Notes under the pieces: model-generated | Database searches by the model: none | The model's input: only the letters and a program-made list of their open reading frames with translations | What the model was told of the DNA's origin: nothing | NCBI GenBank assembly: GCA_963971285.1 | Contig: OZ020258.1 | Coordinates: 13,784,614 to 13,848,613 of the forward strand | DNA from: Astropecten irregularis | Taxonomy: Eukaryota > Echinodermata > Asteroidea > Paxillosida > Astropectinidae | DNA length: 64,000 bases | Direction of reading: 5' to 3' | In this document: positions 3,428 through 47,780 of the stretch, piece after piece | Numbering within the stretch: the first letter of the stretch is position 1 | How the letters are laid out: every line of letters begins with the position of its first letter | Translations under genes and position numbers: made by a program

Positions 3428-3540
3428 TATTGTGTCGTTATAGCGCCCTCTTGGGGCTGTGGTGGTAAGGCTCCGCCATGTTGTTTTGATTAAATTAGTA
3501 TTGGTTGTTGATACACTTGCGTCCATCCGTGCTCACTACA
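3428..3540 (+). repeat. 5' LTR of the Mag-like element
   Basis: 113 bp with canonical TG...CA ends, paired with 7967-8079. A single G-to-A change at 3429 relative to the right copy explains why the match seems to begin only at TTGTGTCG. Very short LTRs are unusual but occur in some gypsy lineages. Confidence 0.9.
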
Positions 3541-3561
3541 TATTGGCGACGAGGATTCGTA

Positions 3562-6500
3562 ATGGCCCACCTTACACCACCTCCACCATACCTTGCAACT
3601 CCAGGTAATCCTAAAATACTCTGGAGACAGTGGAGAAGTCTTTTTGAGACTTTTATTGTTGCTTCAGGAGCTGATTCTTACTCCGATGAGCGTCGTCGCG
3701 CTATACTGTTACATTGCTTGGGGCCAGAGGGGCAACGCATATACGCCACATTGCCGCCTGCTTGCATTGCGGGGTCGGGTGGAGCGGATGCAAAGCCGCC
3801 CGACGATGATTCTACCCCATCTTATGATGAAACTTTGGCACGACTGGAGGCACATTTTCAGCCCAGTGTCAATATTGTTGCCGAACGCTATCGCTTTCGC
3901 CAGAGAGCTCAGCATCAGGGCGAATCTGTGGACGAGTATGTCTCTGCTCTTCGTGCACTTGCTGTTTCGTGTAACTTCGGTGCCTTGACTGATGAAATGA
4001 TCCGCGATCAACTCGTGGAGAAGACTTCAACCGACCGAATTCGTGAGAGACTGCTCTTGGAACCAACTCTCACGCTGACATCTGCTTTGACCCTCAGCCG
4101 TCAAATGGAGGCAGCACTCCGCGAGTCCAAGTCTATTGCACAAGGAGTTGGACTTTTGCAGCCAAACCCGTCGGTCAACGCTACATATGCTCGCAATTCG
4201 AAGTCATCGGCCAAGTCCAGTGCACGTAAGTCAAAGCCACAGTCTTCCAGCAAACCCAAACTTTCACAACCGACTTCTCGCAAGATCCAATGCTATCGTT
4301 GTGGTTCTCCTGATCACAAGGCAAACTCTCCACTTTGCCAGGCCATTGATGCTACTTGTTCTGCTTGTTCCAAGAAGGGACATTTTGCTCGGGTTTGCAA
4401 GTCTTCGGCCAAGGTTAACACTGTTGCGGTTGAACACTTTGAATCTGATTCAGAGGATGAAGTTCAGATCCTAACTATAGGGTCCCCCAAGGCTCGTAAT
4501 CTTACTTGTGACATCATACTTGGCCATGATGCTCGCATTTCACTTGTCTTTGATACAGGATCTCCAGTTTCAATCTTGCCTGCGTCAGTGTTTGACAAGT
4601 ACTTTGTTCGCGAGGCTCTGCAGCCTTCACCCATAAAACTTACTACATACCTGCATGAGCCTATCACAGTCCTCGGATACATCAGCACTACGGTTCGTCA
4701 TGCGGATAGAGCTGATGCCGTGGTGAATGGCAATTTCTACATTGTGGACAAGGGTGATCCAATTCTTGGTTTGGATCTAATCCAGTCACTTCAGCTCACC
4801 CTGGACGGTGACAAGATCATTCCAGTTCGCCAGCTGTTCCCTGAATCGCCGGTTCCTACAGCGCCTACTACACCTGCAGATACTACGAAATACGAGGAAT
4901 CCCTCCGCGCTGAGTTCCCCGAACTTTTCCAGGACAAAATTGGCACAGCTCATGGATTCGCTCACTGTGTCAAAATCAGGCCTGATGTTCCACCGGTACA
5001 ACCACGGTTGCGTAGGCTACCATTCGCCGTTCGCGATAAAGTTTCCGCTGAACTGAAACGACTTGAGAATGCAGGCATCATAGAACGCATTGATGCTAGC
5101 GAATGGGTTTCCCCAATCATCGTTGCCTACAAGAAATCTGGGGATATTCGTCTTTGCGTGGACCTTCGACAAGTCAATCGTGCGGTAGTTGTCGATAGCT
5201 TCCCACTTCCAGACATGCAGGAACTGTTTGCAGAACTCAGACATGCCACTGTTTTCAGTACACTTGACCTCAATTCGGCTTATCATCAATTGGAGCTGGC
5301 TGAAGAGTCACGTGATTACACTGCATTCATCACGCACGAGGGACTGTTTCGATTCCGACGCGTTTGTTTCGGTCTCGCGTCAGCACCTTCAGCATTTCAG
5401 AAATTGATGTCATCTGTACTAAGTGGGCTTCCAGGTGTACAGGCCTACTTAGATGATGTGGTTGTGTACGGCCGAGACCAGGCGGAACATGACAAGCATC
5501 TTTCTGCAGTCCTCAAACGCATACAGGATGTTGGATTGACCCTTAACACTTCCAAGTGTCAGTTCAATTTGTCATCACTGCGCTTCCTCGGACATACTGT
5601 ATCCGCACAAGGGTTGAACCCTGATCCAGCCCATGTGGATGCAATCAAGCATGTGCCACGCCCTACCGATACAGCCACAATGCGTTCCTTCCTCGGACTG
5701 GCATCATATTATGCTCGTTTCGTGCCCAATTTCTCTTCAGTAGTTGAGCCTTTGCGTGCCATGATTCGTAAAGGAGCAGAATTCACATGGTCTCCTGCAG
5801 CGCTTCAAAGCTTCGAGTCAATCAAGCAACTGATTGCACGCTGTGCTACCTTACGGTTGTTTGACCCACAACTGCCAGTGATTGTGTCCACCGACGCATC
5901 GTCCTACGGACTTGGTGCTGTTCTCATTCAGGTAGAGAACGGTCGCGAGTATCCTGTTGCATTCGCATCTCGCACTTTGTCGTCGGCGGAGCGAAACTAC
6001 TCAGTGGGGGAGAAGGAGGCTCTTGCTTGCGTGTGGGCATGCGAGAAATGGTTCCAGTACCTGTGGGGACGCCATTTCACCCTCAAAACTGATCACCAGG
6101 CTCTCACTACACTGCTGTCTGCTCGAGGGTCTGGACGTCAATCCATGCGCATTGCCCGTTGGTCTACACGTCTTATGCGTTTCAACTACACCGTTGAGTA
6201 CTGCGCGGGTGTCAATAATTCAGCAGCTGATGCCATGTCCCGCCTTCCCATTGCTGCAACGGACATATTTGAGGATAGTGATGAGGAGGTAATCATCCAA
6301 TCCTTGAATGTTCTGCTGATAAACAGCACCATCAGCAAAACTGATTTGCAGACTGAGAGTCGTATGGATTCAACCATTCAACAAGTAATCTCACATGTGG
6401 TCAAGGGCTGGCCACATAAGTCACGCATTGATACGGCTCTGCGACCATACTTCATGATCAAGGATGAACTGTCGGTCATTGACGATTGCTTAATGCGTGG

Positions 6501-7629
6501 TGACCGTTTTGTCATCCCAGCCAGCTTGCAACGCAGCTTACTCAACCTAGCTCATGAGGCCCATCAAGGGATTGTTCGGTGCAAACAGCGATTACGCGAT
6601 AGTTACTGGTGGCCAGCGATGGATCGCATGGTTGAAGAGACAATCCGTCATTGCCTACCATGCCAAACCTGTGACAAAACAGCTCGCACTCGAAATACTC
6701 CACTCCAGCCGGTTCCTCTTCCTGAAGGTCCATGGCAGAAGGTCGCAATTGACATAACGGGGCCTTTTGTTGATGCACCTCGCGAGTGTCGTTACGCAAT
6801 TGTCTTAATTGACTACTACAGTAAGTGGCCTGAGGTCGCGTTCGCATCTCAGGTTACCTCGCGTACAGTCATCAATATGCTCTCCTCAGTCTTTGCTCGT
6901 GAAGGTTTGCCCCAAGAACTGGTTTCCGATAATGGATCTCAGTTTGTTTCCGCTGAGTTTGAAAACTTCCTTCACAATTTGGGAATTCAACACAGGAAAT
7001 CTTCACTCTATTATCCTAGAGCAAATGGTGAAGTGGAACGTTGGAACAGGGTTTTGAAGCAGACACTTCAAATTGCCATGCTGGAACACGCTTCATGGAA
7101 ACAAGCCACCATTGACCTACTGACTGCCTACCGTGCTACGCCTCACCAAACTACTGGAAAATCTCCATCAGAGTTGCTTCACAATCGCAAAATGGTGACT
7201 CGGATGAACATTCGCAATGACACCCCTAAATGCGCTGATGATTCTTCAGTTCGCGAACGTGTTGCTCACAAACAGGAACTGTCACGAAAAGCCACTGATC
7301 GTCGACGTGGAGCTCAAAAGCCAAGCTTCCGCGTTGGTGATTACGTTCGCGTCAAAACACCAAATCTCCAGTCCAAGTGTACCAGGAAATTCTCTGATCC
7401 TCAGCTCATTGTGAAAACTAAGGGACGGTTCACATACATGCTCCAGGATGGTCGGGTGTGGAATGCATCCAAGTTGAGTGCATGTCCAGCTACACTCATG
7501 ACTCCTACTGCTCAGACTGCAGCTGCTCACAAACCACAATCTCCAGTTGTGAGTCAGTCTGCTACCACACGCCATTCAACCAGGACACGTATTCCACCAG
7601 TTTGGACTAAGGACTATCACATTGGCTAA
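3562..7629 (+). CDS. Gag-Pol polyprotein of the Mag-like gypsy element
   Basis: The ORF starts at ATG 3562, 21 bases after the LTR; an upstream in-frame TTG lies inside the LTR and is unlikely. The 1355-residue product fuses Gag and Pol without a frameshift. Domains in order: Gag with two zinc knuckles (CX2CX4HX6C and CX2CX4HX4C, residues ~235-275), aspartic protease (FDTGSPVSILP, ~331), reverse transcriptase (YLDD, ~628), RNase H (STDASSYGLGAVL, ~776), integrase with HHCC zinc finger (~995-1035) and catalytic D, D, E around residues 1063, 1122 and 1158. The order PR-RT-RH-IN and the single ORF match the Mag/SURL lineage seen in sea urchins and other invertebrates. No stop or frameshift is visible, so the element could be autonomous. 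Confidence 0.95.
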   Translation: MAHLTPPPPYLATPGNPKILWRQWRSLFETFIVASGADSYSDERRRAILLHCLGPEGQRIYATLPPACIAGSGGADAKPPDDDSTPSYDETLARLEAHFQPSVNIVAERYRFRQRAQHQGESVDEYVSALRALAVSCNFGALTDEMIRDQLVEKTSTDRIRERLLLEPTLTLTSALTLSRQMEAALRESKSIAQGVGLLQPNPSVNATYARNSKSSAKSSARKSKPQSSSKPKLSQPTSRKIQCYRCGSPDHKANSPLCQAIDATCSACSKKGHFARVCKSSAKVNTVAVEHFESDSEDEVQILTIGSPKARNLTCDIILGHDARISLVFDTGSPVSILPASVFDKYFVREALQPSPIKLTTYLHEPITVLGYISTTVRHADRADAVVNGNFYIVDKGDPILGLDLIQSLQLTLDGDKIIPVRQLFPESPVPTAPTTPADTTKYEESLRAEFPELFQDKIGTAHGFAHCVKIRPDVPPVQPRLRRLPFAVRDKVSAELKRLENAGIIERIDASEWVSPIIVAYKKSGDIRLCVDLRQVNRAVVVDSFPLPDMQELFAELRHATVFSTLDLNSAYHQLELAEESRDYTAFITHEGLFRFRRVCFGLASAPSAFQKLMSSVLSGLPGVQAYLDDVVVYGRDQAEHDKHLSAVLKRIQDVGLTLNTSKCQFNLSSLRFLGHTVSAQGLNPDPAHVDAIKHVPRPTDTATMRSFLGLASYYARFVPNFSSVVEPLRAMIRKGAEFTWSPAALQSFESIKQLIARCATLRLFDPQLPVIVSTDASSYGLGAVLIQVENGREYPVAFASRTLSSAERNYSVGEKEALACVWACEKWFQYLWGRHFTLKTDHQALTTLLSARGSGRQSMRIARWSTRLMRFNYTVEYCAGVNNSAADAMSRLPIAATDIFEDSDEEVIIQSLNVLLINSTISKTDLQTESRMDSTIQQVISHVVKGWPHKSRIDTALRPYFMIKDELSVIDDCLMRGDRFVIPASLQRSLLNLAHEAHQGIVRCKQRLRDSYWWPAMDRMVEETIRHCLPCQTCDKTARTRNTPLQPVPLPEGPWQKVAIDITGPFVDAPRECRYAIVLIDYYSKWPEVAFASQVTSRTVINMLSSVFAREGLPQELVSDNGSQFVSAEFENFLHNLGIQHRKSSLYYPRANGEVERWNRVLKQTLQIAMLEHASWKQATIDLLTAYRATPHQTTGKSPSELLHNRKMVTRMNIRNDTPKCADDSSVRERVAHKQELSRKATDRRRGAQKPSFRVGDYVRVKTPNLQSKCTRKFSDPQLIVKTKGRFTYMLQDGRVWNASKLSACPATLMTPTAQTAAAHKPQSPVVSQSATTRHSTRTRIPPVWTKDYHIG

Positions 7630-38227: not shown

Positions 38228-38750
38228 AGGGCGGCTGCAGTGCTTTTTTTAGTCAGGTTATTTTATTGCCTTCATACAGAGAATATACTGACAAATAATG
38301 AATGGCAAGTCTTATTTTGGTTTCAAACCAGCATTTGGTTTTCTCTTGAACGGCTTTGCAAAATGGGGGATTTTCATGCATACTCATGTAGGGAACCAAC
38401 AGCCAAAATATAATGAAAAAGGCAAACATGACCCCCAGAAATGGTTTGTCAAAAAAATTACACCACCAGTTGAGTGAAAGGAACATATTCAGCACAAAAA
38501 ACCCATTGAGGGGGAAAATTTTGTCAGAAAACCTATAAAACAGCCGCAACTTTTTGTGCACAAATCAATTGAGTTACTGCTCTCAGTTCCCCAGATGACA
38601 TCACAGTTTTGCTCATGAATATGGAAATGCTAATTAGCATACAAACTGAAAAACCTGTTTTTAACCCTGAATCAGTGTGAGGAAGTGGGTAAAATCACAA
38701 TCCCCATGTACATTTTTTTTTATTGGCACATGTTCAGGCCATAATATTCG
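38228..38750. repeat. ~540-bp dispersed repeat, copy 1
   Basis: Runs from GCAGTGCTTTTTTTAGTCAGG to CACATGTTCAGGCCAT. The reverse complement, diverged, is at about 47235-47780 (for example CCACTTCCTCACA and AAGACTTGCCATTCATTAT in both). The two copies flank the CsRn1 element at a distance in inverted orientation. Confidence 0.65.
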
Positions 38751-39515
38751 CATTGCAGAGACCCTTTAAAACCATACTGCCAGACATTTTGTAACGATAG
38801 TCATGCATACAGGACGAATGAATTGAATTGAATTGAAAAAGAATTTAATTTAATACAAGGACGTCTTACTTTTTTTTATAATTTCAGTTATCAGCTGGTT
38901 AATTCCCCAACGAAGTTGTATCACACCTTCATTTGTTGTACTTTTGTACAATTTGTATCACAACGAAGCAACTTATGAGAAGCGTCTTTGTGTAGCAGTC
39001 TACAAGACTCATATAGGCCTGATCCGAAAAATTGCTACATCTGTGGCTGTTGGTGTTTTTAGACGCGTCTATGCTTTGTTACAAGCCCGCGAGCTGTTGC
39101 CCTTAATTAACAGTCGTAGCTGTAGTTTTAGATAAAGGCCTATAGCCGTAAGTTCAGGATATGAACTCGATATTGGTATTCCTAAAAGACTCATGGTCCC
39201 AGTGCATAATTATACATGTAGCCATAATTATCATTTTGCTATACACGTTGTGTTTGCTCTTCGGTCTAATTTGTCCCCCGACGTTCCATGCCACTGCTGC
39301 ATTGATTTGCACAGCAACGTGTGATGTGGTCGTTGTGTTCCCGAGAAGGCCTAATAGAGAACTGTTTTCATCTTGACGGTGTTCTAAATTCAATAACCGT
39401 GCTCATTTTTCACAACCCACGCTATAGTGTGTCGAGGCGTTGTACACCAGCCTCGGCCTTTATTTTAGGTTTGTTTGTATGTTTTTAAACGATGACAGCA
39501 TTTCCACTGACCTTT

Positions 39516-39893
39516 TCTTTAAAGTTTATATCATAGTAATCAAACTTTGTTTTTTGTCGAAGAAATACATAATTATCGGCAAAAATATCAAAGAAGATAC
39601 AAAAACAGTCATCTGCGAAAATTTCAGTCCCATCCGGTGCCCACTTTTTAAGAAAACAGTGAAAACGGCCACAGTCTTTTGTTAAGTCTTTTCTCTTTTA
39701 TTTTTGATCTTTAAAAGATCAAAAATAATTGTGGTCACTAGTTTTACTCTTTTCTGGATAAATACACCATTTCACGCAGAAATATTTTAACGGTATGTTT
39801 CTACCATCACCAACTTTATACCCTGTAAGTTATAGGTAAATCTGAGGTGAAAAGTTCCGTTTCGGTATGCATGCTACCAAAATATGGTACTAC
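39516..39893. mobile_element. MITE of the AAAGGTAGTATCATAC family, split by the CsRn1 element
   Basis: Left end near 39518; the body carries CAGTCCCATCCGGTGCCCAC and the palindrome TTTTGATCTTTAAAAGATCAAAA. The right terminus stops at GGTACTAC (39893), and its missing end CTTTAAG resumes at 46198 after the second ACTAC. It is the pre-insertion target of the retrotransposon. Confidence 0.8.
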
Positions 39894-40569
39894 TGTAGTG
39901 AATTGCTTTATTCCCAAGCCAGGAGTGCTGGCAAGTAGGGCTTAACCCCTTTCCTTTTGTACAGGTATATATTCCTTAAATGTTATAAGTATTTATAGAG
40001 TAGATAGGCTAATTAATTCACTCCACCCAGGCCAGAGAGAGACTTAAGTAGGCAACACCAGTAGTTGTGTAAATCCTCCTTTTGTTAGCCTGGTAGGGCA
40101 CAATAGCCTTATTGTTATACATGCTTGGAGGGGAGAAAAAGCACATTGCTTTTTCTGCCTTGCAAGCCAGTCTTCAGCTACTCATCAAGGGAGCAACACC
40201 TAAGTTTAATAGTTCATCATACTTTAGTATAGATACTTATAGTTGGCCAGAAACAGGGGTGGAAACTGATTTGGCAGTGTACACTCCTACACAGCAACTG
40301 TCCCTGTGGAAAGCCAACTTATCAACTTACAGTTATAGTGTATATATTCTTCATCTAGCTTATTCTCAAGTATTTAGGTAAGTTAATTTAAGTAGGTACA
40401 TGTAGTTTAGTTTAAGATATCAAAATTAAAAATCACTATTCCAAGCAACTCTGTGGAGAAACTCAGGCCGTCCATAGGCCATGTGCTGCTCCTTGTGTTC
40501 CCTCCGACGGCGACGCTGGATTAGGGTAAGCGTAATCCTACACATAATTCTAACCTATCAAATCCCTAA
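39894..40569 (+). repeat. 5' LTR of the CsRn1-type element
   Basis: Begins TGTAGTGAATTG and ends ATCCCTAA; it does not end in the usual CA, and a one-base ambiguity at the A-run leaves 4-bp CTAC as an alternative target duplication. It contains a consensus splice donor TTTAGGTAAGT at 40374-40384 and an 89-codon ORF (40112-40381) present in both LTRs. Confidence 0.9.
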
Positions 40570-40654
40570 AACTGGTGACCCTGACGTGATTTGTACGTTT
40601 TTGTGTGTATGATATATTCTTTTTCGGAAAGGCACAATCAAATTTCGTAGCTGA

Positions 40655-41383
40655 ATGACTCATTTCTTGTTCGTTGCCGATTCTCGTGGCCATTATTTTA
40701 ACAAATACCCAAAGCCTGGGGAATTTTCATTTACCGCAGAATTTATTACATTGCGTGGTGCCAAAATTTACAATTTAGTTGGACCAGTCATCAACAAACT
40801 AAAAAAATATAGTAGTTCTGACAAGGTTGTCATAAGACTGGCAGCTGGAATCAATGATTTAACTACTTTCGTTTATGATTCAACTCACGAGAAAAGAGTT
40901 CTCAAACCTTCTGCGCATACGGCAGATAGCATTTTTACCGAGCTCTTGAATTTCAAAGAGGCAATTTTGACTGCTCGACCTGAAAGTCCTACTTTTGTAA
41001 TTTTCACTACTATTCCACCCGTTTCTTTTTCCAAATTTCAAGCGAGCAAGAGACTCGCGGTGCCAATTCTTTCAGTTGAAGAAATTAATACATTCCAGCT
41101 GAAATTCAGCGACATAGTAGATAGTGTAAATGCTAAAATAATTGAACATAACCAACTTCCACAGCAAGGAATTTCATTTACAACATTGTTTTGGCATAAT
41201 TCTGTCAGAAAGACAGCAAAACGCACACGTCGTGGCAAAACCAAACACGTCGTTAGGAATCACTTTGCTCATTTGTACGACGGTCTGCACGGAGATCCCA
41301 AGCTAAAACGACAGTGGTTTTTGTTGATGTATAAGGCTTTTCATCAGGACTGCAAAGTTTTGTCCGAAATTAAGCCCTCTTAA
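40655..41383 (+). CDS. SGNH/GDSL hydrolase-like accessory protein of the CsRn1-type element
   Basis: The 242-residue ORF begins at ATG 40655, between the primer-binding site and gag, and ends TAA. Three features match the SGNH hydrolase fold: FLFVADSRG near the N-terminus with the candidate nucleophile Ser10 (block I), LAAGINDLT with Asn67 (block III, GxND), and YDGLHGD near the C-terminus with Asp209 and His212 (block V, DxxH). RGAKIYNLVG (residues 34-43) is a plausible block II. A basic patch (KTAKRTRRGKTK, ~186-197) precedes block V and could bind nucleic acid. SGNH-type esterase domains are known in ORF1 of some CR1/L2 LINEs; one upstream of gag in an LTR element is unusual as far as I know. 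Substrate and activity are unknown; catalytic residues appear retained. Confidence 0.7.
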   Translation: MTHFLFVADSRGHYFNKYPKPGEFSFTAEFITLRGAKIYNLVGPVINKLKKYSSSDKVVIRLAAGINDLTTFVYDSTHEKRVLKPSAHTADSIFTELLNFKEAILTARPESPTFVIFTTIPPVSFSKFQASKRLAVPILSVEEINTFQLKFSDIVDSVNAKIIEHNQLPQQGISFTTLFWHNSVRKTAKRTRRGKTKHVVRNHFAHLYDGLHGDPKLKRQWFLLMYKAFHQDCKVLSEIKPS

Positions 41384-41444
41384 TTTACTATACAGTGTAT
41401 ATATATTTGCGTAGGTTAGCGTACACATTAACCTAGGTTTAAGT

Positions 41445-42305
41445 ATGTCTAAACCTGGTCCATCTGAAGCTCCTGACCCACCAGTGCCTGTGTCAGCTGT
41501 CAGCCTTAAGTTACCTCCTTTCTGGCCCCACGATCCCACAATATGGTTTGCACAAGTTGAAGCACAGTTCCAAACGCGAGGTATTACACAGCAGATAACC
41601 AAATACTCTTATGTTGTTTCCTCACTGCAACCTGAGATAGCCCAAGAGGTCAGAGACCTACTCATTTCTCCACCTGCTGTAGAACCTTACGATGTTATAA
41701 AATCCGAACTGATCAAACGTACATCACTATCGGAACAAAAACGTCTCCACCAACTCCTAATATCCGAAGAATTGGGTGACAAAAAACCCTCCCAACTTCT
41801 TCGCAGGATGAAACAGCTGCTTGGTGAAAACCAGCTTGAAGCTAGTATTTTGAGACAACTGTTTTTACAGCGTTTACCCCAGAATGTACAATTGATCCTT
41901 GCCTCCTCAAGCGATTCGGTTGATGTAGAACAGCTAGCTCTGATTGCTGACAAAATTGTAGAAGTTGCACAACCACCTTCATTAGCTGCTTGCTCAGCAG
42001 CCCCACCGAAAGATCAGGCAGTTGACACACGCATAGGTGAATTACAAGCCCAAGTCAATCAGCTGACTACTTTAGTCCAGGGTTTAGTCACAAGCACACA
42101 GAGAGATAGAGATAGCCGTAGTCGTAGCCGTGACCGTAGACGTAACCCGGGAAATTATAGCAACCAGAAAGGTAGGCATAGGAGCAAATCTAGAGCTAGT
42201 GACATACCTCGTGCTGGGTCCGAATGCTGGTATCACTGGCGTTTCGGAAACCAAGCAACAAAATGTGTAAAACCTTGTTCCTTTGATTCAAATCAGGAAA
42301 ACTAG
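41445..42305 (+). CDS. Gag of the CsRn1-type element
   Basis: 286 residues from ATG 41445 to TAG 42303-42305. The N-terminal half has the CsRn1-type capsid pattern ([56 protein letters not shown]). An arginine/serine-rich stretch (~215-250) precedes an unusual zinc finger CX2HX9CX3C (CWYHW...CVKPC) instead of the CCHC knuckle. The protein packages genomic RNA into particles. It ends 18 bases after the pol frame opens. Confidence 0.92.
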
Positions 42306-45300
42306 AATGCCAGCAACTGGGGACGACAAGTTCGTCTGGCAAAATCCAGAGTCGTCTTTTCTATGTGACCGATAAAACCACCGGCACTAAATTGTTAGTA
42401 GACACAGGTGCAGAAGTTAGTGTTTTACCACCTTCCAACACAGATAAACTTAACAGTAGCTCGTATACATTACAAGTAGTTAACAAGTCTCCCATATCCA
42501 CTTATGGAGAGAAATCGATGACTCTTAATATAGGGCTGAGACGTTCTTACAAATGGATATTTATCATTGCTTCAGTGCCATTTCCTATTCTTGGTGCCGA
42601 TTTTCTAAGGCATTTCTCCTTAGCAGTTGATGTTAAGAACCGCAGGTTAATTGATACAGTTACTGAGTTGAAAGTTGTAGGATGCAGTTCATCTGCAGTT
42701 TCACCTAGCCCTATGTTCGCCATACCTAAATGTGACAGCACTAGTCCTTTACTCAGGGAATATGCAGACATAACTAAGCCAAATTTCCAAGAAACGTCAG
42801 TAAAGCACACTGTTACTCACCATGTTGTTACCAATGGCCCACCAGTTAGCTCACGCCCTAGACGACTTTCACCAGAGAAATTACAAATAGCCAAAGCAGA
42901 ATTCGATCATATGCTGGAACTAGGGATAATACGCCCATCCAAAAGCCCTTGGTCATCACCATTACACATGGCACCAAAGAAGACTGGTGATTGGAGGCCG
43001 TGCGGTGATTACCGTGCCCTAAACAACATTAGCGTGCCTGATAGGTATCCAATCCCCCACATTCATGACTTTACGTCAAATGTTCATGGCAAGAAGATTT
43101 TCAGCAAAATTGATCTTGTGAAAGCTTACCATCAGATACCTGTAGAACCGCAAGATATTCCTAAAACTGCCATTACTACACCTTTTGGCCTCTTTGAATA
43201 TGTTCGAATGCCTTTCGGGTTAAGGAACGCTGCCCAAACGTTCCAGAGGTTTATTAATCAGGTTTTACACGGTCTTGATTTCGTCTACGCTTACATTGAC
43301 GACTTACTTATTGCAAGCTTTGACGAGCAAGAACATGAGCATCACCTACGGTTACTTTTTGACCGTCTCAGAGAATTTGGCGTAATCATAAACCCTAGTA
43401 AGTGCCAATTTAATGCAACTAGCCTTGAGTTTCTAGGACATCACATTGACTGTCATGGCATCAAGCCCCTAGACAGCAAAGTCAAAGCTGTGCAAGATTT
43501 CCAAGCACCAACCTCACTCCGCAAGTTGCGAGAATTTCTGGGAATGCTTAATTTCTATCGACGCTTTATCCCCCACTGTGCCGACATTTTGCAACCATTG
43601 ACAGATCTGCTTTGCTGCAAGGCGAAAAACAAGGCAATTCAACTCTCGGAGAACGAACTTTGTGCATTCCACAAAGCTAAAACAGTGCTAGCCGAAGCAA
43701 CATTACTAGTCCACCCTACCATAGATGCACCACTGAGTTTAATGGTAGATGCGTCAGACGTAGCAGTTGGCGGCGTCTTACAGCAATGCGTTGACAATAC
43801 AATGAGGCCAATTTCATTCTTCTCAAAACGCTTACAACCAGCAGAGACCAGATACAGCACATTTGGTCGCGAGTTGCTGGCTGTATACTTAGCAATACGC
43901 CACTTCAAGTATGTATTAGAAGGTCGTAACTTTTACATCCTTACTGACCACAAACCTCTCACTTACGCATTCAATGCTAAACCAGACCGATACTCGCCTA
44001 GAGAAGTTCGCCACTTAGATTATGTCTCTCAGTTTAGTACTGATATACGCTACATCCAAGGAAAACAAAACCTTGAAGCAGATGCTCTCTCAAGACAAGA
44101 TGTAAATGCATTTACCAACCTACCTAACTCTAGTGTAGATTTTGACCAAATTGCCCTTCAGCAGAAGACAGACACAGAACTAACCAAGCTTCGCGAATCG
44201 TCTAGTCTTCATTTTGAAGAACTGCCAATTTTGACATCTCATAATACAATAGTCTGTGACACCTCTACTGGACATCCAAGACCTTATATCACTCCGGAAT
44301 TCAGACGTAGAGTTTTTGATTCAATGCATTCCTTATCACATCCAGGAATCAGAGCCACCCAACGCTTGATCACCCAACGATTTGTATGGCCATCCATCAA
44401 TAAAGATGTCCGAACTTGGACCAAACAATGCATTCAATGTCAACGGGCCAAAGTACACCGTCACACAGTGACACCATTAGGTACTTTTGCCAACCCTGAC
44501 TCTCGCTTCAGTCACATACATATTGATATTGTTGGTCCACTACCGCCATCCAATGGTTTCTGCTATTTACTCACGTGCATAGACAGGTTCACACGTTGGC
44601 CTCAAGCTATACCAATCACTAACATTACGGCTGAAACAGTGGCTAAGGCATTTGTCGAACACTGGATTTCGACTTTTGGAGTACCTGCAGTAATTACCAC
44701 CGACAGAGGCAGACAATTTCAATCCAAATTGTTTGAACAACTTTCACTATTACTAGGTAGTAAACACATCTACACTACTGCTTACCATCCATCTGCTAAC
44801 GGGTTAGTGGAACGGTTCCATCGACAACTCAAGTCCGCCTTCAAAACACAAAGCGAGCCAAATCGATGGACTGAATCACTACCGCTTATATTACTTAGCA
44901 TCCGTTCAGCCCTCAAAGTCGACCTAGGATGTAGCGTGGCAGAATTAGTATTTGGTTCGACGCTAAGACTGCCGGGTGAACTATTAGTCCCTGCTGACAA
45001 TTTTGACAGCATAGATCCCGCCAGTTATGTCGACCGCCTACGTCGACAGATGTCTGAATTAACACCAACATCCACAAGACCTAACCAACGCAAAAGCCAA
45101 ATACATAATGATCTCTTCACATGTACCCATGTCTTTGTACGCGTAGATGCAGTCAAGAAACCGCTCCAAGCCCCTTACAACGGCCCATACCCCGTTGTAA
45201 AGAGAAACAATAAGTTTTTTGTTCTGGACATTAATGGCAAAGAAGACTCAATCAGTGTTGACCGATTAAAAGTGGCCCACACTAATTACATAACCAAGAC

Positions 45301-45436
45301 ACCAACATCTAAACCTGACCTTACACATCCTTCGCCCAGTGCACCCCTAACAGATAAACCAGATCGAGTTACTCGCTCTGGAAGGCGTGTGCGCTGGCCG
45401 AGTAGATATTTGCAGACAGTAATCATTGATAGATGA
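42287..45436 (+). CDS. Pol polyprotein of the CsRn1-type element (PR-RT-RH-IN)
   Basis: The reading frame opens at 42287, in the -1 frame relative to gag, and is uninterrupted to TGA 45434-45436. I see protease ([21 protein letters not shown]), reverse transcriptase with YIDD (~43290), RNase H ([13 protein letters not shown]), integrase with an HHCC finger (HSLSHPGIR...CIQCQRAK) and the D, D, E catalytic residues ([23 protein letters not shown]), then a GPY/F-like NGPYPVV module. No ATG precedes the protease, so expression probably needs a -1 frameshift in 42287-42305; G-GAA-AAC lies directly before the gag stop but is a weak slippery site. Confidence 0.93.
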
Positions 45437-45516
45437 ACCCTTGTATATAGATTTAATTTTCAACCTTTATTAGCGATCACATTTTGAGGTATAATTTGTG
45501 ATCTTGAAGGGGGCTA

Positions 45517-46192
45517 TGTAGTGAATTGCTTTATTCCCAAGCCAGGAGTGCTGGCAAGTAGGGCTTAACCCCTTTCCTTTTGTACAGGTATATATTCCTT
45601 AAATGTTATAAGTATTTATAGAGTAGATAGGCTAATTAATTCACTCCACCCAGGCCAGAGAGAGACTTAAGTAGGCAACACCAGTAGTTGTGTAAATCCT
45701 CCTTTTGTTAGCCTGGTAGGGCACAATAGCCTTATTGTTATACATGCTTGGAGGGGAGAAAAAGCACATTGCTTTTTCTGCCTTGCAAGCCAGTCTTCAG
45801 CTACTCATCAAGGGAGCAACACCTAAGTTTAATAGTTCATCATACTTTAGTATAGATACTTATAGTTGGCCAGAAACAGGGGTGGAAACTGATTTGGCAG
45901 TGTACACTCCTACACAGCAACTGTCCCTGTGGAAAGCCAACTTATCAACTTACAGTTATAGTGTATATATTCTTCATCTAGCTTATTCTCAAGTATTTAG
46001 GTAAGTTAATTTAAGTAGGTACATGTAGTTTAGTTTAAGATATCAAAATTAAAAATCACTATTCCAAGCAACTCTGTGGAGAAACTCAGGCCGTCCATAG
46101 GCCATGTGCTGCTCCTTGTGTTCCCTCCGACGGCGACGCTGGATTAGGGTAAGCGTAATCCTACACATAATTCTAACCTATCAAATCCCTAA
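45517..46192 (+). repeat. 3' LTR of the CsRn1-type element
   Basis: Reads the same as 39894-40569; preceded by GAAGGGGGC and followed by the target duplication ACTAC at 46193-46197 and the remaining MITE end CTTTAAG. Confidence 0.92.
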
Positions 46193-46203
46193 ACTACCTT
46201 TAA

Positions 46204-47230: not shown

Positions 47231-47234
47231 CTCC

Positions 47235-47780
47235 TCTGTAATAGGAATACCATGGCTTGAACATGTGCCAAAAACCAACTGTTTTATGGGGCCTGTGATT
47301 TTACCCACTTCCTCACATTTTTTCAGGGTTAACAACAGTAATTTTGGTTTGTATGCTAATTAGAATTTCCATATTCATGAACAAAACTGTAATGTCATCT
47401 GGGTAACTGAGAGCAGTAACCCAATTGATTTGTGCACGAAAAGTTGGGGTTGTGTGACAGACCTTTTCCTCCTCAATATAGGTTTTATTGTGCCTAATAT
47501 ATTCTTCCTTTCACCCAACTGGTGGTGTATTATTTTGCCAAACCATTTCTGTGGGTAAAGTTTGGCTCTTAATTTTTGTTTAATGTTTTTTCATTATACT
47601 TTTGCTGTTGGTTCCCCACATGAGCATGCGTGAAAATCCCCCATTTTGCAAAGCCATTAAAATGAAAACCAAATGCTAGTTTGAAACAAAAATAAGACTT
47701 GCCATTCATTATATGTCAGTATATTTGTCTCTGTATGAAGGCAATAAAAATAACCTGACTGAAAAAAAACACTACAGTTT
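47235..47780. repeat. ~540-bp dispersed repeat, copy 2 (inverted)
   Basis: Reverse-complement relative of 38228-38750, adjoining at 47780-47965 pieces of two AAAGGTAGTATCATAC MITEs joined at a shared CCTTTAAAGG. Confidence 0.6.

Follow-up and report, generated by a model that had tools for sequence, protein, structure and literature searches.

The window analysed here comprises 64,000 nucleotides of the asteroid Astropecten irregularis (assembly GCA_963971285.1, contig OZ020258.1, positions 13,784,614 to 13,848,613 of the forward strand) and holds a whole Ty3/gypsy element with long terminal repeats (LTRs) at 39894-46193. We investigated an open reading frame (ORF) of this element, here called ORF0, which is located between the primer-binding site (PBS) and gag and whose product is predicted to adopt the fold of SGNH hydrolases. 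The preliminary description of the locus had reported ORF0 as an uninterrupted frame of 242 codons, and it is indeed open from ATG to TAA; in 2000 mononucleotide shuffles of positions 40571-41444 the longest ATG-initiated ORF did not exceed 133 codons (mean 45). The element had also been called fresh, in agreement with its two 677-bp LTRs, which show no difference, and the CTAC target-site duplication. A 13-codon upstream ORF at 40609-40650 stops four bases 5' of the ORF0 start codon; none was seen in the leaders of loci L046 or L042.

The PBS pairs at 19 of 19 bases with the host tRNA-Trp gene plus CCA, as named by ARAGORN in the genomic stretch L082; in a second stretch, L083, ARAGORN named no tRNA gene. 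The gag translation contains the zinc finger CWYHWRFGNQATKCVKPC, which corresponds to the CX2HX9CX3C pattern given for CsRn1-like elements, for which tRNA-Trp priming and a CHCC gag signature are described (PMC2582038). The labels "gypsy" and "CsRn1 clade" fit the element as judged from PBS and gag signature. Pfam recognised reverse transcriptase (RT), RNase H and integrase in pol; the protease matched RVP at E 0.0026, short of the RVP cut-off. The ORF list shows no additional frame from the end of pol to the 3' LTR.

Features of the ORF0-carrying element and of ORF0 itself (window coordinates; A1, alignment described in the text)
Feature	Positions	Strand	Remarks
Target-site duplication CTAC, 5' copy	39890..39893	.	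CTAC recurs directly past 3' LTR
5' LTR	39894..40570	+	677 bp; 0 differences from 45517-46193
Primer-binding site	40573..40591	+	19 nt complementary to 3' end of host tRNA-Trp
ORF0, predicted SGNH-fold accessory protein, 242 aa	40655..41383	+	open frame; homologues upstream of gag; model and structure matches
Ser10 codon, candidate block I nucleophile (ADSRG)	40682..40684	+	20/20 A1 rows with that position
Gly35 codon, block II (RGA)	40757..40759	+	22/22 rows
Asn67 codon, block III (AAGIND)	40853..40855	+	22/22 rows
Basic insert, residues 178-208, TLxWHxSVRKxxKR...RN	41186..41278	+	conserved; low pLDDT in model
Asp209 and His212 codons, block V (DGLH)	41279..41290	+	His 22/22; Asp 15/22
gag, 286 aa, DUF7041, CHCC zinc finger	41445..42305	+	Pfam E 3.1e-33; motif read in translation
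pol: protease, RT, RNase H, integrase	42287..45436	+	Pfam and ORF list; -1 frame relative to gag
Polypurine tract GAAGGGGG	45506..45513	+	by eye from sequence
3' LTR	45517..46193	+	677 bp; same as 5' LTR
Target-site duplication CTAC, 3' copy	46194..46197	.	4 bp, abuts 3' LTR

Three motifs had been recognised in ORF0 as SGNH blocks I, III and V, namely Ser10 in ADSRG, Asn67 in GIND and Asp209 with His212 in DGLH. All of them stand at these residues, and block II, overlooked at that time, is represented by Gly35 in RGA, present in all aligned rows. We followed these positions in an alignment (A1) of 22 rows, consisting of the window ORF and 21 of 30 ORF0 loci; omitted were L009 (the window itself), L011, L020, L035 and L036 (identical) as well as L014, L018, L031 and L033 (interrupted). 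Ser10, Gly35, Asn67 and His212 are unchanged wherever the position exists. An aspartate three residues before the histidine occurs in 15 of the 22 rows, the window ORF included.

A confident structure model together with structural matches supports an alpha/beta SGNH fold for ORF0, as the preliminary description had predicted. Single-sequence AlphaFold prediction was uninformative, with a predicted local distance difference test score (pLDDT) of 36. A number of results weigh against ORF0 being an SGNH hydrolase that serves the element. In the model pLDDT is below 50 at residues 182-192 and 194-212 and, because this region includes Asp209 and His212, the active-site geometry is not established by it. 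Foldseek template modelling scores on the query reached just 0.24-0.46, and the 50 Foldseek rows include two PTS IIA proteins (6fmg, 3ipr). The window ORF had no Pfam GDSL match at E <= 1; Lipase_GDSL matched one of the 22 members at E 0.0055 and the unrelated SQS_PSY six of 22, at best with 0.011. Asp209 is replaced by glycine in seven of the 22 rows, of which six are satellite relics and the seventh, L026, is an element copy. No membrane anchor, transmembrane or myristoylation feature or coiled coil was evident in ORF0 by eye, without a predictor. ORF0 also diverges faster than its neighbours, with identities of 42-67% in nine family pairs versus 70-90% for gag and 62-79% for protease-RT, and a profile comparison with a Ngaro-type ORF, described below, gave a probability of just 42%. 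PF13472 matched the genome in 124 places, with 150 of 166 candidates scored, and none of these is an ORF0 place; phmmer and profile searches against PDB sequences gave no SGNH match, PHROGs and NCBIfam gave no credible match, and the viral contigs and prokaryote genomes searched contained no relative.

The genome (475.7 Mb, 168 contigs) yielded at least 73 matches at E <= 1 to the ORF0 protein, and 80 when the L025 relative served as query. Outside an array on C9, 16 of the 73 matches span at least query residues 4 to 234 without a stop. These full-length copies represent six families, named after the window (four copies), L013, L016, L017, L023 and L025; LTR pairs checked in three of them showed 0 differences (window) or agreed to 99.6% (L013) and 99.8% (L017). 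All 30 excised ORF0 loci have a gag match just downstream, a partial one in the C9 copies. In the six families measured, ORF0 begins 31-96 nt past the PBS start and gag 24-100 nt past the ORF0 stop; the proposed check for the ORF in related elements found it in the same place in six families. Among the best 30 of 74 DUF7041 matches, 22 have an upstream ORF0 match, clearly partial in three (L039, L057, L068), and eight have none. In the ORF0-less loci L045, L060, L065 and L066 some 100-220 bases separate the PBS from the downstream gag domain match, and L064 has a variant PBS immediately past the LTR. No PBS-like site was detected in L061 and L062, the remaining two of the seven loci checked; the eighth, L067, is just 17% filled.

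Some copies show peculiarities of their own. C9 contains many ORF0 copies with partial gag at 4.94-5.59 Mb; a 10-kb sample (L069) is full of a ~31-bp repeat, and in all six aligned C9 copies the catalytic aspartate is glycine. In five of five loci of the L017 family (L046-L049, L051) the piece ACTGGTGAC of the PBS (~596) is repeated past the ORF0 stop and ahead of gag (~1386), in L046 as 13 identical bases counted by eye; this repeated piece is perhaps a scar of ORF0 insertion. In L002/L055 (C15:16717115), a copy nearly identical to the window element, an internal deletion joins gag in frame to the later part of RT (892-aa open frame) and leaves ORF0 intact. In the window, inverted repeats with arms of 21-175 nt, 77-100% complementary and about 8.5-9.5 kb apart, flank the element at 38244-38760 and 47234-47767, and it appears to sit within this older structure. 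Another gypsy-type element, at 3499-7626, encodes its CCHC knuckle, RT, RNase H and integrase in one frame of 1376 aa.

ORF0 is under purifying selection between families. Among seven representatives (the six families and one C9 copy) the proportion of synonymous differences (pS) is saturated at 0.73-0.91, and that of nonsynonymous differences (pN) is 0.20-0.43. ORF0 of the window and of L013 differ at 73, 51 and 142 sites of codon positions 1, 2 and 3, respectively; the window LTR can be aligned with the L013 and L017 LTRs just in pieces of 16-20 bases. Between copies of the window family there are 1-2 synonymous changes against 1-3 nonsynonymous ones, too few for the ratio of the two rates across copies, which had been proposed as a check, to say much; it was between families that this check brought out constraint.

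The ORF0 tree and the gag-RT tree differ just in how the window, L013 and L016 families are ordered, a point with weak support in both. The first gag tree contained 26 of 30 gag loci (L055, L061, L067 and L068, less than 60% filled, were omitted) and placed L062, a partial copy in which neither PBS nor ORF0 was detected, among the carriers; the approximately unbiased test rejects a single carrier clade for it (p 0.0007). Without the degraded L062 (25 rows) the ORF0 carriers form one side of a branch with 90/90 support. The suggestion that the gene was captured fits this clan and the five sisters that lack ORF0; when L062 is kept, a single clade is rejected. A single acquisition followed by retention is the simplest reading; since the tree is unrooted, an ancestral ORF0 that was lost in the sisters could also account for it.

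The insert before block V carries a net charge of +7 to +9 in 26-33 residues in the seven representatives. The basic patch of the preliminary description is real and conserved; its proposed fit to an RNA-binding scaffold is one of two readings, the other being contact with lipid. This conserved loop beside block V may dock on acidic lipid or nucleic acid. The ZfL2-1 esterase, likewise very basic, attached to acidic liposomes but did not bind oligo-A RNA; it is another, arginine-rich peptide of ZfL2-1 ORF1 that is suspected of RNA binding, and an ORF1 fragment with an arginine-rich motif was crosslinked to RNA (PMC3905857). On the single precedent of this esterase we lean to lipid as the putative target. 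The fold might instead be a non-enzymatic scaffold whose basic loop binds element RNA or serves as a nuclear localisation signal, with catalysis unimportant. In every family representative the insert is strongly basic, conserved and of low confidence (perhaps flexible); together with the seven rows lacking Asp209, the crosslinked ZfL2-1 fragment and the LTR element Cer1, which relies on an additional protein, CERV, for nuclear export of RNA (PMC10309623), this speaks for a scaffold. We nevertheless consider it doubtful in view of the liposome preference of the ZfL2-1 esterase and the retention of Ser10, Gly35, Asn67 and His212.

SGNH ORFs are on record for LINE (long interspersed nuclear element) ORF1, Ngaro, Penelope-like and bdelloid Vesta elements (PMC3905857, PMC9210276, PMC5408684). 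The earlier statement that such domains are not standard in Ty3/gypsy elements needs qualifying, since a GDSL ORF3 is present in Vesta LTR elements (PMC5408684). Captured ORFs of LTR elements have been placed downstream of pol (PMC6431247), and no SGNH ORF located ahead of gag or belonging to the CsRn1 clade was found among the papers listed in searches of the open PMC literature. Vesta ORF3 is, like ORF0, an SGNH-type ORF of an LTR retrotransposon apart from gag and pol; its place is behind gag and pol, in a lineage of bdelloids, whereas ORF0 precedes gag in a CsRn1-type one. Membrane penetration has been suggested for ORF3, and intragenomic variation of this bdelloid ORF looks mostly neutral (PMC5408684). 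The ZfL2-1 esterase shares SGNH fold, basic character and gag-side position with ORF0 but is one domain of a coiled-coil ORF1 protein of a non-LTR (CR1/L2 LINE) element, whereas ORF0 is free-standing beside an intact gag (PMC3905857).

Ngaro-type SGNH ORFs (amphibian Ngaro, PMC9210276; L064) are likewise retroelement-borne, have the same block order and match ORF0 distantly at the profile level; L080 and L081 share an RGA-like block II. They differ in lying after a tyrosine recombinase, in having GDS and GTND and in matching Pfam GDSL_2, whereas ORF0 has no GDSL_2 match and an extra basic insert. In L064 (184-813; L072, C10:4816447-4817076) a classical SGNH ORF with 150 scored genome matches stands behind a tyrosine-recombinase-like C-terminus, identified by eye, and adjoins an LTR element without ORF0. 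L064 was rejected as a second element with SGNH before gag: its SGNH ORF is part of a Ngaro-like element, next to which lies a CsRn1-type element lacking ORF0. A profile of the L064 ORF and three relatives, the single SGNH profile compared, aligned with ORF0 by hhalign at 21% identity (probability 42%, score 33.6); none of 100 column shuffles exceeded 23.0, and the reversed profile scored 12.3. The alignment covers blocks I-III in order (GDS/ADS, GGA or RGA/RGA, GTND/GIND), and both ORFs may possibly derive from a common retroelement SGNH source.

The Drosophila MDG1 group provides a positional parallel. Its sORF1 and sORF2 are accessory ORFs upstream of gag in a gypsy element with low nonsynonymous/synonymous rates and are tied to cell-to-cell transfer; sORF2 is a short (about 70 aa) transmembrane FAST-like protein without hydrolase fold, unlike ORF0 (PMC11952523). 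Because of this link a transfer role for ORF0 is worth testing. ORF0 would then be an envelope-independent factor passing particles between cells (soma to germ line), as proposed for sORF2. Its 5' location and purifying selection as in MDG1, the lack of a further ORF behind pol and the membrane penetration suggested for bdelloid ORF3 fit this proposal, which we judge unlikely given that sORF2 is a much smaller protein of a different kind and that our inspection by eye revealed no transmembrane or myristoylation feature in ORF0. A recently transduced gene riding neutrally with one active family would be hard to recognise from window-family copies, which differ too little to reveal constraint, but the 16 uninterrupted copies and the low pN at saturated synonymous sites across six families contradict it and make it extremely improbable.

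In summary, ORF0 is almost certainly an accessory gene that encodes an SGNH fold and is maintained by selection. The analysis showed the open frame, its constant position, its predicted fold, its S-G-N-H residues, the selection between families and its absence from five sister elements, and the view that it serves the element is upheld indirectly by its fixed place in six families and by purifying selection. We favour, as the probable explanation, that a CsRn1-type Ty3/gypsy subclade acquired this accessory protein, probably once, and kept it for a benefit in the replication cycle. ORF0 would be the first long cistron of the element RNA, and we infer a working ester or thioester hydrolase acting at membranes. 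Catalytic activity is likely, because the nucleophile and oxyanion residues are retained; a membrane or lipid role is more tentative. The conserved basic loop by the active site would dock on acidic phospholipid (or nucleic acid), and ORF0 might aid the replication cycle, for example by moving or releasing particles or ribonucleoproteins. A further-reaching and quite improbable version is that an envelope-less gypsy lineage swapped its envelope for a lipid-acting SGNH enzyme before gag, whose basic loop would dock on acidic membranes and which would open or remodel them for particle transfer between cells.

With this element the pattern of diverse retroelements with SGNH hydrolases extends to a second LTR lineage and a new position, and its ORF0 shows selection between families versus the mostly neutral-looking variation of the bdelloid LTR case (PMC5408684). 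Being a separate protein of 242 aa that has an obvious nucleophile candidate, ORF0 makes the esterase role in retroelements testable outside LINE ORF1. If the improbable version with a replaced envelope were true, SGNH enzymes would represent an exchangeable membrane module that was taken up independently by several retroelement classes.
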